Positions 51,315 through 62,194 of a stretch of DNA of 64,000 bases are shown piece after piece (the first letter of the stretch is position 1; each line of letters starts with the position of its first letter). The notes beneath the pieces were generated by a model, which did no database searches, was not told where the DNA came from, and saw only the letters and a list, made by a program, of their open reading frames with translations. Source of the DNA: Myxococcaceae bacterium (GTDB lineage: Bacteria; Myxococcota; Myxococcia; Myxococcales; Myxococcaceae); the NCBI GenBank assembly GCA_016793095.1, contig JAEUJQ010000073.1:1-64000 (forward strand), in the 5' to 3' direction. A program made the translations under genes and the position numbers.

Positions 51315-51357
51315 TTGTGCTCGCTCGCGGTCGTTGTTAGGTTGGGTAACCAACTTA
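51315..51357 (+). promoter_or_regulatory. tetR promoter and operator
   Basis: TTGTGC (51315-51320), a 17-bp spacer and TAGGTT (51338-51343) look like a sigma-70 promoter. An inverted repeat TAGGTTGG-GTAA-CCAACTTA (51338-51357, seven of eight positions pairing) covers the -10 region and ends two bases before the ATG. This is the place for autoregulation by the TetR protein. Confidence 0.6.
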
Positions 51358-56780: not shown

Positions 56781-59099
56781 ATGGGCGAGGCGTCATGGGT
56801 CGAGAGGCTGTTCGCGGCCGTCATCGCGAAGCGGTGGGTGGTGGTGCTGGTGTGGCTCGCGCTGGTGCCGGGCGCGGTGTGGCTCTCGCTGAAGCTGCCG
56901 AGCGACGGCGCCATCGACCGCCTCGTCGTCGAGCGCGACCCCGACGTGGTGCGCACCCGCGCCTTCCAGCAGGTGTTCCCGGAGGGGCGGCAGGTGGTGC
57001 TGCTCTTCGAGCCGGAGGGTGACGTCTTCGCGCCCGACGTCCTCTCCCAGCTCGCGGCCCTGGAGGATGCGCTCGGCAAGGTGAAGGGCGTGGTGCCGTT
57101 CTCGGCGCTCTCGCTGTTCCGCCGCCGTGAGGCGGACCTCTCGGCCGCCGGCTTTTCCGCCCGCTTTCGCGCCTTCGCGGAGGGGAGCTCCTTCTTCCGT
57201 CGGCAGGGGCTCGTCGGCGCGAAGCACCTCTCGGTCGCGGTCACGTTCCAGGCGCCCGGACCGCACGAGCGGGACGCGACGCTGGACGAGCTCGAGCGCG
57301 TCATGGCCTCGGTGCCGCACACAGCCCTCGGCGCCCCCCGCCGCGTGGGCCAGCCATACGTGGAGCAGTGGCTCGAGTCCGAGACGAAGCAGGCGACGGT
57401 GCGCTACTTCCCGCTCTTCGGTGCGTTCGTGGTGCTGCTGGTGCTGGCGCTCTACCGCTCGTGGCGCGCGCTGGCGGCCATCCTGCTGACGCTCGGGGTG
57501 ACGGTGCTCATGGCCATGGGGCTGGGCCAGCTCGTCGGCTTCACGCTCACCATCGTCTCCGAGCTGGTGCCGCTCGTCGTGCTCGTCACCGCCACGGCCA
57601 CCCTCGTGTACCTGCACTCGCGGTACATCCAGCAGCCCGAAGACGTGGCGCTCGAGCGACACCACGTCTTCTCGCTGGCCAACAAGGCGCTGCCGGTGAC
57701 GGCGAGCCTGGTGGCGGCGCTGCTCGGCTTCGCAGCGCTGGCGGTGTCGGAGATCCGCCCGATTCGCGAGATGGGCCTGTGGACGGCCGCGGGCCTCGGC
57801 GTGTCCTGGCTGACGAGCTTCACCCTCTTCCCCGCGCTGCAGCGGCTGCTCGCCTGTCCCACGCGTCAGGGCACCACCCCCGCAGGCCGTCTCTACGTGC
57901 GCCTGGCCGACGCGCTGCCGGGCTTCACCTTCCGCTTCCGCTGGCCGCTGCTGGTGGGCTCTCTCGTGGTGATGCTCGCGGGCGGCGCCGCGCTCTTCGG
58001 CGTGCCCGGCCTCGTCGCCCCGATGCGAATGGAGGTGGACGCCGTCGAGTACCTCGACGAGGCGCTGCCGCTGCGACGAGACATGGCCGTCTACGAGCAG
58101 GCGGTGGCCGGCCTCGCCGCCGTGCGCATCTGGGTGAAGACGCAGGACGGCGCGGTGGTGGAGCCGCCGACGCTGCAGGCGCTCGACCGCTTCAGCACCG
58201 CGGTGGCGAACGAGCCCGGCGTCAGCTCGGTCATCGGCCCGACGACGCTCCTGAGGCTGCGGCGGTACGTGGCGGGGCAGGGCGACGCGCTGCCCGAGGA
58301 AGAGGCCGGCTTCGCCGAGGCGGTGGCGGACCTGGAGCAGTTGCTCCTCACCGAGCAGGAGCTGCGCGGCTTCATCGACTTGAAGACGCTCGGGCAGGCG
58401 CAGCTCATGGTGCTGACGAAGCGCGGTGACGCCTCCTCGTTCGCCGCGCTCGAGGCCCGGCTCGACGGGCTGTGGAAGGCGGAGCAGGCACGCTCACCGG
58501 CGCTCAGCACCGCCACGGCGCAGGTCGTGGGCGAGTCGATTCTGCAGGCGAAGATCGGCCAGCACCTGGTGCCCACCTTGACGGAGAGCTTCGGGCTGAC
58601 CGCGGCGCTCATCTTCCTCACCTTTCTGGTGGTGTTCCGCAGCGGCGCCGCGCGGTTGATGGCGATGGTGCCGTCGGTGTTCGCGATCCTCGCGACGTTC
58701 TTCGTCATGCGGCTGACGGGCATTCCCCTCAACGTCGCCACCATCCTCATCGCCACGACGGTGCTGGGCACCACCGAGAACGATCAGGTGCACTTCTTCC
58801 ACCACTACCAGGAGGTGAAGAAGGACGGCGCGAGCGCCGAGCGGTCGATGTTGCACACCCTGCACGTGTCGGGGCACGCCATCATCTACGCGACGCTCAT
58901 CAACGCGAGCGGCTTCCTCGCGCTGTCGTTCTCGAACCTGCCGCCCATGCGCCAGTTCGGCATCGTGACGTCCGTCGCCTTCGCCTTCGCGATGCTGGCG
59001 GACTTCACGGCGCTGCCCGCCGCGCTGTGGATCTTCATGCGCGAGCGACCGGACCCGAAGGGCGGGGCCAGCGGGCCAGCGTCGAAGACGTCGGGCTGA
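56781..59099 (+). CDS. RND-type exporter (MMPL/HAE3 group)
   Basis: A 772-residue membrane protein with the twelve-helix RND plan: helix 1 (~18-38), a periplasmic loop (~40-200), helices 2-6 (~205-350), helix 7 (~390-410), a second loop (~415-590), and helices 8-12 (~595-760). The TESFGLTAALIFLTFLVVF and TVLGTTENDQVHFFHHYQEVKK regions are family-like. The loops are short, so it belongs with the two-loop MMPL/HAE3 proteins that move lipids or hopanoids. It has no fusion or outer-membrane partner here. Confidence 0.9.
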   Translation: MGEASWVERLFAAVIAKRWVVVLVWLALVPGAVWLSLKLPSDGAIDRLVVERDPDVVRTRAFQQVFPEGRQVVLLFEPEGDVFAPDVLSQLAALEDALGKVKGVVPFSALSLFRRREADLSAAGFSARFRAFAEGSSFFRRQGLVGAKHLSVAVTFQAPGPHERDATLDELERVMASVPHTALGAPRRVGQPYVEQWLESETKQATVRYFPLFGAFVVLLVLALYRSWRALAAILLTLGVTVLMAMGLGQLVGFTLTIVSELVPLVVLVTATATLVYLHSRYIQQPEDVALERHHVFSLANKALPVTASLVAALLGFAALAVSEIRPIREMGLWTAAGLGVSWLTSFTLFPALQRLLACPTRQGTTPAGRLYVRLADALPGFTFRFRWPLLVGSLVVMLAGGAALFGVPGLVAPMRMEVDAVEYLDEALPLRRDMAVYEQAVAGLAAVRIWVKTQDGAVVEPPTLQALDRFSTAVANEPGVSSVIGPTTLLRLRRYVAGQGDALPEEEAGFAEAVADLEQLLLTEQELRGFIDLKTLGQAQLMVLTKRGDASSFAALEARLDGLWKAEQARSPALSTATAQVVGESILQAKIGQHLVPTLTESFGLTAALIFLTFLVVFRSGAARLMAMVPSVFAILATFFVMRLTGIPLNVATILIATTVLGTTENDQVHFFHHYQEVKKDGASAERSMLHTLHVSGHAIIYATLINASGFLALSFSNLPPMRQFGIVTSVAFAFAMLADFTALPAALWIFMRERPDPKGGASGPASKTSG

Positions 59100-59108
59100 C
59101 CCCGGCCG

Positions 59109-60710
59109 TCAGCGGCCGTCCCGCGCGCCCTCGGCGGCGGCGGACGAGGCGCTCCGCAACAGGCTCATCGTCGTGCCGAGCTGAACGAGCTCGAGGACGG
59201 TGCCGTCGGGGTCCTTGAAGCAGATGAAGCGCGTCGTGCCCCCGACGGGGTCGCGCACCTCGCCAGGCTGGGCCGAGAGGAACTCGACGCCGCGCGCGCG
59301 CAGGCGGGCGACGTCAGCGTCGAGGTCGCGGGTCACCAGCGCGATTCGCGCCAGGCCGAGGTGGTTGAGCGCGTCGGGAGGCGGCCGGGCGTCGCGGGGC
59401 TGCTCCCACTCGAGCAGGTCGATGGTCGAGCCGTCGGCGTGCACCAGGAGGGCGCCGCGCACCCGGTAGCGCTCCATGCCGACGGCGCGCGCGACCCCGC
59501 CCTCGCCATCGGGCGCCACGTCCATCAGGGCTCGAAACCCGAGCGCCTCGTAGAACGCCTTCGAGCGGGTGAAGTCGCTGCAGTTGACGTTCACGTGCAG
59601 CATTCCAGTGACGTGCGGGCCCGCGTCGCTCGCCGCGCCCTGCTTCGAGGTCACCACGAGCGCCACTCCCGCGAGGACGAGGGCGCCCAGCACCACGACC
59701 AGCCAGCCCCTCCCCCCGCGCGTGGAGAGGCGGGTTCTCGGTGCAGGGTGAATCATCGCGGTCTTCACCCGCGCCGCCCACGACTCGGGGCCAACCCACA
59801 GCGCGTAGAACAGCGTTCGCGCGAGCGTGCCACTCAGGTAGCGGAGGCGGGGCCGGCGGGCGGTGACGGCGTGCACGATGTCCAGCACCGCGCGCGTCGG
59901 AGCCTGGGCGATGCGCTCGAGGCTCTTCGTGTTCCACGTGACGTACTCGTCCAGCCATTCGCGTGGCCAGTCACGCTGCCACGCACCGTCGGGTTCCAGG
60001 CGAGCCATCTCGCCCCACGCCTTCCGGTGGCCCTCGAAGAAGGTGAGGGCGAGCGGCGTTCGCATCGTCGAGGGGTTGACGACGCTCACCTCGACTCCCC
60101 AGAACGAGACCTCGGCGCGCAGCGCATCCGCGAACGCCTCGAGCGCGAACTTCGACGCGTCGTACGGCGCGTTGCCGGGCAGGCTCACCAGGCCATCGAC
60201 GCTGCTCACCAGCACCACCCGCCCGCGGGCCTGCTTGAGCGCCGGGAGCAGCCGCTGGGTGAGGCGGGTCGGGCCGAAGAAGTTCACCTCCATCGTCGAG
60301 CGGTAGAAGGCCGGCGGCTGGTAGTCGATGAACCCGGGAAGGACGATGCCCGCGTTGTGAACGAGGGCCCAGAGCTCGGCGCCGCAGGCCGCGACCAGGG
60401 TGTCAGCCGCGGCCTCGACGCCCGCCTCGGTCGAGAGGTCGATGCGGGGCGCGAGGGCCGCGCCGGCCGCCAGCGCCGCTCGGCTCCCCTCTTCGGTGTA
60501 GCAGCAGGCGATGACCCGGCAGCGTCGGCGCGCGAGCTCTTCGACGACGCCGCGTCCGAAGCCGGAGTCGCACCCGGTGACGACGACGGTCTTGCCCGCC
60601 ACGTCCAGGCGCGCCCGCTGACCGAGCGCCGTGCGGAGCCGACCGGTGAGCGCGAGCGCCGCGAACGTCCACACCAGCAGCCCGGTGACGAGGAGCGCCG
60701 GTTCCATCAC
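59109..60710 (-). CDS. Membrane SDR oxidoreductase fused to a VOC domain
   Basis: A 533-residue bimodular protein. Residues ~4-25 are a membrane anchor. Residues ~37-320 form a classical short-chain dehydrogenase: TGCDSGFG cofactor loop, NAGIVLPG, VSSVDGLVS and YDASKFALEAF with the Tyr-Lys pair. This part resembles the retinol/hydroxysteroid dehydrogenase group. A second membrane helix lies at ~352-372. The C-terminal ~150 residues are a VOC/glyoxalase fold (MLHVNVNCSDFTRSKAFYEALGFRAL, later FKDPDGTVLELVQLG). This combination is unusual. The start overlaps marR (ATGA). Confidence 0.85.
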   Translation of the reverse strand: MMEPALLVTGLLVWTFAALALTGRLRTALGQRARLDVAGKTVVVTGCDSGFGRGVVEELARRRCRVIACCYTEEGSRAALAAGAALAPRIDLSTEAGVEAAADTLVAACGAELWALVHNAGIVLPGFIDYQPPAFYRSTMEVNFFGPTRLTQRLLPALKQARGRVVLVSSVDGLVSLPGNAPYDASKFALEAFADALRAEVSFWGVEVSVVNPSTMRTPLALTFFEGHRKAWGEMARLEPDGAWQRDWPREWLDEYVTWNTKSLERIAQAPTRAVLDIVHAVTARRPRLRYLSGTLARTLFYALWVGPESWAARVKTAMIHPAPRTRLSTRGGRGWLVVVLGALVLAGVALVVTSKQGAASDAGPHVTGMLHVNVNCSDFTRSKAFYEALGFRALMDVAPDGEGGVARAVGMERYRVRGALLVHADGSTIDLLEWEQPRDARPPPDALNHLGLARIALVTRDLDADVARLRARGVEFLSAQPGEVRDPVGGTTRFICFKDPDGTVLELVQLGTTMSLLRSASSAAAEGARDGR

Positions 60711-61177
60711 GAGCCCTCGCCCAGGCGCGCGAGGAGCACCGTCACGACGCGGGAAAGCTCGGCGCGGGCCGTTCGCCCATCATCCCCGGCCAGCACCTGG
60801 TCGAGCTGCCGAAGCACCTCGACGCCCGGCCCGAGCGGCGCCCCGGACCTGAGCTGAACGCGCGTCGCACGAGCATCACCGGGTTCGCTCCTGGTCGTCA
60901 CGACGCCCGCCGCTTCGAGGCGCGCGACCATGGCCGTGACGGACGGGGGCTTCACGCCGAGCCGGCGCGCCAGCTCCCCGTGCCTGAGACCGCCTGGCGC
61001 GCGCATCAGCTCGCCCACCAGCCGGAACGCCGACGCAGACAGGCCGAGGGGCGCGAGGTCGTGCTCGAGGCGGGCCTTGAAGGCCTCGGCCAACGCCCAG
61101 ACTTGAAGGGAGAGGTGTCGCTCGAGCTCGAGCGTTGGCGGCGGATGGTGAGCGGTGGACGCGCGGGGCATGGTCAT
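60707..61177 (-). CDS. MarR-family transcriptional regulator
   Basis: A 156-residue winged-helix repressor. GLRHGELARRLGVKPPSVTAMVARLEAAGVVTTRS is the recognition helix and wing, and DARATRVQL is the wing end. It is probably a homodimer. The stop overlaps the start of the SDR-VOC gene, so it should control that gene and itself. An inverted repeat lies immediately upstream of its start. Confidence 0.93.
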   Translation of the reverse strand: MTMPRASTAHHPPPTLELERHLSLQVWALAEAFKARLEHDLAPLGLSASAFRLVGELMRAPGGLRHGELARRLGVKPPSVTAMVARLEAAGVVTTRSEPGDARATRVQLRSGAPLGPGVEVLRQLDQVLAGDDGRTARAELSRVVTVLLARLGEGS

Positions 61178-61196
61178 TTGTTAGGCGAACGAACAA
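61178..61196. promoter_or_regulatory. Candidate MarR operator
   Basis: TTGTT-AGGCGAACG-AACAA, an inverted repeat with 5-bp arms, sits immediately upstream of the marR start codon. MarR proteins often bind AT-rich palindromes of this kind (TTGTT...AACAA) to control their own operon. Confidence 0.5.
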
Positions 61197-61302: not shown

Positions 61303-61950
61303 TCAGCACAGCCGCAGCGTCGATGGCTTGCCGTCGAGTTCTGCGAACAGGTCGTGCGCCAGGACCGGTACCCGAACACCCCGCCGGCGCATCGCCCGTT
61401 CGAGCTCGTCGATGAAGAGGCCCCGGCCAGGCCGGGCGTGCTCGCGGACGATTTCGTTCTGTCGCGCTGTCGTGAGCGAGTCCACCTGCGTCGCCGCCAT
61501 CGCGCGCGCTGCACCGCCGAGGTCGATGGTTACCCTTGCGCCGCACGACGGGGAGCCGTCGATGCCGACGATGGCGATGACCTCGATGCCTGACGCCAGG
61601 CAGTCGGCGAGCTGCGCCACCACCTTGCGCGCGAGCCGGCGGTACACCCGCCGCGTGTACGCCTCAGCGACCGGCACCAGCGCCTCGAAGGCCGGCCGCC
61701 CGTACACCGCCAGCATTCGCCGCTTGAGGACGCCGCCCCACGCTCCCTCTTCCGGGCATGGCAGCTGGACGATGCCGATGTTCGCGTCGAGGCACTGCTG
61801 AACCAGCTCGCGGTTCGCGCCCCCACAGGCCGCGCCTCCGAGGTACCGGGTGTTCGCGTTGAGCAGGCAGTGGGACAGAAAGACGACCCGGTGGCTCCGC
61901 TGATCGACGAGGCGCCCTGCGATCTGTCGGACTCGGGCGTTGGCGATCAT
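61303..61950 (-). CDS. DUF523/TudS-like protein
   Basis: A 215-residue protein with the family's cysteine motifs: SHCLLNANTRYLGG, QLPCPEEGAWGG and GIDGSPSCGARV. In the known member TudS, such Cys hold an [4Fe-4S] cluster that removes sulfur from thiouracil. Here the same Cys are present, so a desulfurase or cluster-binding role is plausible. The ATG (MIANARVRQ) was chosen because the fold begins there; the open frame goes 29 codons further. It is on the same strand as marR but separated by ~125 bp. Confidence 0.8.
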   Translation of the reverse strand: MIANARVRQIAGRLVDQRSHRVVFLSHCLLNANTRYLGGAACGGANRELVQQCLDANIGIVQLPCPEEGAWGGVLKRRMLAVYGRPAFEALVPVAEAYTRRVYRRLARKVVAQLADCLASGIEVIAIVGIDGSPSCGARVTIDLGGAARAMAATQVDSLTTARQNEIVREHARPGRGLFIDELERAMRRRGVRVPVLAHDLFAELDGKPSTLRLC

Positions 61951-62194
61951 GGGACGAAACCTCACGCGGCAGACGATGAGCTTCGACTTCACCACGCAGC
62001 GCGCTCGTTCGTCTCGCGTCCCACGAACCTGGCCCACAGGGCTCGACCGGCCTTCGAGGACCGCGAGACGTTCTTCCGTTGCGGCGCGTCGTGCGGTGCC
62101 GCGAGTGCCTCACCTGGCGGGCTGGCGCTGGAGCGGGTCCACCGCGCCACCAGGCTGCAGGCGAACCGGGGAAGCTGCTGGGCGAGCTCCGACC
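61951..62194. other. Intergenic gap before the TPR kinase gene end
   Basis: About 245 bp without a supported gene. A short minus-strand frame is open but has no motif or ribosome-binding site. I see no repeat or terminator. Confidence 0.4.

Follow-up and report, generated by a model that had tools for sequence, protein, structure and literature searches.

A membrane-anchored SDR9C-like dehydrogenase fused to a VOC domain: joined form of a conserved bacterial gene pair with a possible role in apocarotenoid metabolism

The SDR9C family is best known for its animal enzymes, which are dehydrogenases of retinol, steroids and oxylipins. DHRS9 (SDR9C4) and its relatives oxidise retinoids, steroids and many oxylipins (PMC8761697), a range of substrates so wide that membership of the family alone does not fix what a given enzyme acts on. 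The RPE65-family enzymes, or carotenoid cleavage oxygenases, form a second known system (PMC5133782); members of this family cleave stilbenoids too (PMC6060882). One paper on cyanobacterial retinoids makes no mention of short-chain dehydrogenases (SDRs). The VOC superfamily includes methylmalonyl-CoA epimerase, glyoxalase I, the TnmS/UcmS2 proteins and the protein of structure 1SS4. Our literature searches found no description of an SDR-VOC fusion, nor of an SDR/VOC pair accompanied by cleavage oxygenases.

The gene studied here lies in a stretch of 64,000 nucleotides, called the window below, from a genome of 8.8 Mb. A first-pass annotation had proposed that an SDR is joined through a membrane helix to a VOC domain, and the open reading frame proved to be real. 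The segment 59109-60710 (minus strand) is a single open frame of 533 codons with zero stops, whose product carries both Pfam adh_short (residues 40-221, 2e-38) and Pfam Glyoxalase (residues 370-508, 9e-13), together with two hydrophobic stretches (residues about 5-23 and 335-355). The order along the protein is thus membrane helix, SDR domain, second helix, VOC domain; the predicted second helix and glyoxalase-fold domain are borne out by Pfam, by hydropathy and by a model of the VOC half, and the structure model extends the first helix over residues 3-32. The frame is not a chance one, since for both halves there are proteins elsewhere with 50-67% identity, and third-position GC (GC3) remains high in this frame across the linker. 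The upstream marR gene (60707-61177, minus strand) ends in TGATG, which overlaps the start of the fusion gene, so that the SDR probably starts at the ATG at 60707, one codon downstream of the GTG at 60710. Neither the fusion nor its VOC domain occurs a second time in the window genome. The features are as follows.

61178..61196, no strand: palindrome TTGTTAGgcgaaCGAACAA immediately before the start codon of marR, a likely operator for MarR (predicted)
60707..61177, minus strand: regulator of the MarR family, encoded by the first gene of the operon; 49% identity to its MarR counterpart in L081/L110 (see below)
59109..60707, minus strand: SDR-VOC fusion gene, 532 codons from the ATG at 60707; alternative GTG at 60710
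60642..60698, minus strand: first membrane helix by hydropathy, residues about 5-23, with an Arg cluster after the helix
60048..60593, minus strand: SDR (Rossmann) domain, residues 40-221
59739..60047, minus strand: SDR C-terminal substrate/membrane region, residues 222-324, aligned with DHRS9
59709..59738, minus strand: junction, residues 325-334, with a G6 run at 59712-59717
59646..59708, minus strand: second membrane helix, residues 335-355
59166..59615, minus strand: VOC domain, residues 366-515, with H-D-R-E at the canonical metal ligand positions

The dehydrogenase half meets DHRS9 first by every route and over its whole length, C-terminal region included. DHRS9 is its best PDB match by sequence (phmmer, 7e-37, residues 12-304), its best family profile (1.1e-50, versus 2.4e-27 for the next family) and the first-ranked Foldseek match to its AlphaFold model (pLDDT 88; TM 0.79/0.85), and none of the general models of SDR families passed its cut-off. 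Among members with solved structures, which is what our comparison covered, the SDR half is therefore closest to the vertebrate retinol/oxylipin dehydrogenase family SDR9C, in agreement with the earlier assignment as a membrane-anchored dehydrogenase of the retinol/steroid type. Both hallmarks of a classical SDR, the TGxxxGxG cofactor motif and the catalytic N-S-Y-K residues, are present: the glycine motif reads TGCDSGFG, with T45, G46, G50 and G52 invariant in 15 proteins, and N143, S169/S170, Y183 and K187 are invariant in the same 15. The window protein shares with DHRS9, the retinol dehydrogenases and HSD17B6 the N-terminal membrane helix, the TGCDSGFG-type motif, the N-S-Y-K residues, a C-terminal region that aligns to about residue 304 and the same model fold. 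It differs in being bacterial and only about 29-30% identical to them, in having HxAG in place of NNAG, and in its linkage or fusion to a VOC protein. The crystal structure of DHRS9 contains NAD, and the window protein resembles DHRS9 in the segment that follows the second strand, a likeness that suggests NAD as cofactor.

Close relatives of both halves (50-67% identity) occur in marine Halieaceae, in one other genome of the window's phylum and in one further lineage. They came from a scan of one genome per species, in which the close relatives in marine Gammaproteobacteria included HTCC2080 and Luminiphilus. The other genome of the window's phylum belongs to a different family and carries relatives of both halves, each about 60% identical (L081; in a wider stretch, L110), and the gene was not found in other genomes of the window's class or genus. 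Searching the family of HTCC2080 and the class of the L011 genome brought in further members, while sampling of a gammaproteobacterial order (390 and 244 genomes) added none. Carriage on plasmids or viruses was rejected, matches being absent from plasmids and viral contigs alike.

At 13 loci an SDR gene and a VOC gene stand side by side as two separate genes. The VOC ATG lies on the SDR stop as an ATGA overlap in 10 of these; the overlap is GTGA in L114 and TGATG in L115, and in L110 a single TGA and a gap of 3 bases separate the two genes, which lie in one frame. Two of the loci, L013 and L015, are copies within one genome. Elsewhere the association loosens, the two genes lying unlinked on different contigs in genome G727 and the SDR standing alone or with a more distant VOC protein in L112, L113 and L116 (L119 being partial). 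The second helix of the window protein matches the N-terminal anchor of the separate VOC proteins of L010, L011, L110 and L118, and the Halieaceae VOC proteins have no N-terminal anchor; a membrane anchor thus sets some of the SDR-linked VOC proteins apart from the VOC superfamily at large. Distances among the SDR proteins correlate with those among the VOC proteins (r 0.84, 12 loci), as expected of partners, but shared species history contributes to this value too. L113 also contains, at 527-1885, a gene for a protein of some 450 residues in which two VOC domains stand in tandem; they are distant relatives of the window VOC domain (35%), and an apparent RND transporter lies beside the gene. 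Genome G686 has six such domains.

An RPE65-family gene adjoins the SDR/VOC pair in 10 of the 13 loci (L009, L012, L014, L015, L016, L064, L110, L111, L114 and L115; L013 ends at a contig end). With up to three cleavage oxygenase genes per genome, this linkage is far above random placement, though the Halieaceae loci are mutually related. The L110 oxygenase is only 28% identical to that of Halieaceae, so the linkage probably arose at least twice. Both types are nearest in the PDB to Synechocystis apocarotenoid-15,15'-oxygenase and both have four invariant His residues; the neighbours of the relatives belong to the same family as the described enzymes. In the Halieaceae loci a TetR gene and aldehyde dehydrogenases also adjoin. 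The window genome departs from this pattern: no cleavage oxygenase gene lies beside the fusion gene, and its two oxygenase genes, one of them 42% identical to the L110 operon gene, are on other contigs. No cleavage oxygenase gene was found in the genome of L010, and in L112, L113, L116, L117 and L119 the SDR has no linked oxygenase. Squalene/phytoene synthase family genes are present in the window genome, and a microbial rhodopsin gene is absent from it. Its second oxygenase gene lies beside one whose product by eye resembles a GMC/cholesterol-oxidase-type flavoprotein (L088, 1468-2862 and 2979-4352).

The recurrent oxygenase linkage points to apocarotenoid (retinoid-like) metabolism and makes apocarotenoids the likeliest substrates. 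We give a probability of roughly 0.5 to the reading that the window gene fuses the two members of a conserved bacterial pair, namely a membrane-anchored alcohol dehydrogenase of SDR9C-like type, probably NAD-dependent, and a VOC protein, with a role in apocarotenoid metabolism. We infer the substrate and the function of the VOC domain: the pair probably processes fat-soluble carotenoid fragments. The cleavage oxygenase would make an apocarotenal, which the SDR would interconvert with its alcohol at the membrane (aldehyde dehydrogenases being close by in Halieaceae); the VOC domain would bind a hydrophobic ligand without isomerising it, and MarR would sense the same class of compound. A bacterial SDR9C-like enzyme travelling with cleavage oxygenases would, if this is true, be a tractable counterpart of retinoid metabolism, and the fusion hints that SDR and VOC proteins work together in the two-gene marine Halieaceae as well.

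It is possible, though somewhat unlikely, that the same pair acts on another lipid, such as oxylipins, steroids or hopanoid-type alcohols, and that the oxygenase linkage is incidental or serves other alkenes. The many oxylipins and steroids oxidised by DHRS9 and its relatives (PMC8761697) would fit such a substrate, as would the position of the window gene, which lacks a linked oxygenase and converges on a gene for an MMPL/HAE3 lipid exporter. However, the exporter gene was not found beside the pair in relatives, and the oxygenase linkage recurs with two distant subfamilies and in two phyla. A wider form of the apocarotenoid reading can be offered tentatively: at least two phyla may possess a dedicated membrane apocarotenoid/retinoid module, made up of a cleavage oxygenase, an SDR9C-type dehydrogenase, a metal-free VOC carrier and a MarR or TetR sensor, in which one lineage has fused dehydrogenase and carrier with two membrane helices. 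A role of retinal as the chromophore of a microbial rhodopsin is unlikely, a rhodopsin gene being absent from 14 of the 15 genomes searched.

The VOC half has the fold of its superfamily (model pLDDT 79; Z 16.3 against 1SS4; Pfam Glyoxalase above its cut-off), and its nearest PDB sequence is methylmalonyl-CoA epimerase (4e-9). In the epimerase we take His 7, Gln 60, His 84 and Glu 134 to be the metal ligands and Glu 43 to be the base; the mutants Q60A and E43Q are named in PDB titles. The four ligand positions align with H, D, R and E, invariant in 15 proteins, and Glu 43 aligns with an Arg. The canonical H-E/Q-H-E site of VOC metalloenzymes is thus replaced by H-D-R-E, in which an invariant Arg takes the place of the third ligand, and the epimerase base is not conserved. 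We consider it unlikely that the domain has a catalytic role, converting the SDR product as an isomerase, dioxygenase or lyase. The closeness of the epimerase and the invariance of all four ligand positions, three held by H, D and E and one by Arg, would suit such an enzyme, but the Arg stands where the epimerase has its ligand His 84, the base has itself become Arg, and the folds of drug-binding VOC proteins of the TnmS1 type match about as well as those of metalloenzymes. Judged from these residues, a canonical metal enzyme appears unlikely, and the H-D-R-E site favours ligand binding, by analogy with the drug-binding VOC proteins. Of the two roles the first-pass annotation had offered for this domain, ligand binding or isomerisation, the second was therefore not borne out.

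The fused state was found in the window genome only, with no second fused genome. Every relative found has two genes, often translationally coupled, so that the fusion stands for the window but is rejected as a family trait. Separate genes in all relatives, coupled with a false fusion due to a missing stop, had been named as what would count against the proposal; the separate genes are indeed what we see, which is half of that test. At the junction the stop and the ATG seen in relatives are both absent, the linker reading RTRLSTRGGRG-WLVVV, and because both codons have been lost a single base error is not an easy explanation. Judging from a single assembly, which has a G6 run where the halves meet, the organism probably does carry the fusion. 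Its probable origin is the disappearance of the stop and start codons that once separated two coupled genes; had the ancestor resembled L110, with the two genes already in frame, losing the stop would have fused them.

That an assembly base error joined two genes, or that the VOC protein is also made separately by internal initiation, we regard as distinctly unlikely. All 13 other adjacent pairs are two genes, the G6 run (59712-59717) falls at the junction, and no same-genus genome with the gene was found for comparison; GGGGGGAGGGG, which resembles a ribosome-binding site, lies upstream of in-frame GTG codons at the junction, at which initiation could give a separate VOC protein. Against these points, the junction has neither stop nor ATG, and GC3 stays high throughout the linker. 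The L081/L110 arrangement is already in one frame, and an indel error in such an ancestor would break the fusion, not make it; a single-indel error presupposes an ancestor of the ATGA type, and the VOC gene would then lack an ATG.

The overlap between marR and the start of the fusion or SDR gene is common to the window and to L081/L110, which represents a second family. Directly before the L110 marR start lies a palindrome, TTTGTTAGgctaaCTATCAAA, which is the counterpart of TTGTTAGgcgaaCGAACAA; an exact-seed repeat search missed both. At up to 2 mismatches 0.06 matches to TTGTTAGgcgaaCGAACAA are expected, a figure that is indicative, the pattern having been written after the site was seen. Each operon thus has the features of a MarR-controlled one, a regulator gene coupled to its target and a palindrome at its own start, with binding predicted. 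A shared operator and autoregulation by MarR are likely from this arrangement, and the control by MarR suggested earlier gains support from the overlapping start and from an operon and palindrome common to another family. No MarR operator was found within a 15-kb stretch at an unlinked oxygenase gene of the window genome. A second operator-like site in the window, TTGTTAGGTTGGGTAACCA (51334-51352), differs from the palindrome at two positions.

There are Arg residues after the first helix and before the second. The positive-inside rule would thus place the SDR domain in the cytoplasm and the VOC domain in the periplasm; the charges of the L011 VOC protein suggest the opposite orientation. With the VOC domain outside and the SDR inside, a direct hand-over between them would be less obvious.

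Among the neighbours in the window, the MMPL/HAE3-type lipid exporter gene (56781-59099, plus strand), which has a sterol-sensing-domain match, ends about 10 bases from the fusion gene. Upstream of marR and on the same strand, 61303-62037 (minus strand) has a sub-threshold match to 2-thiouracil desulfurase (PF04463, 3e-6). The segment 62195-64000 (minus strand), cut by the window end, encodes a TPR-like repeat protein that by eye resembles the end of a serine/threonine kinase.
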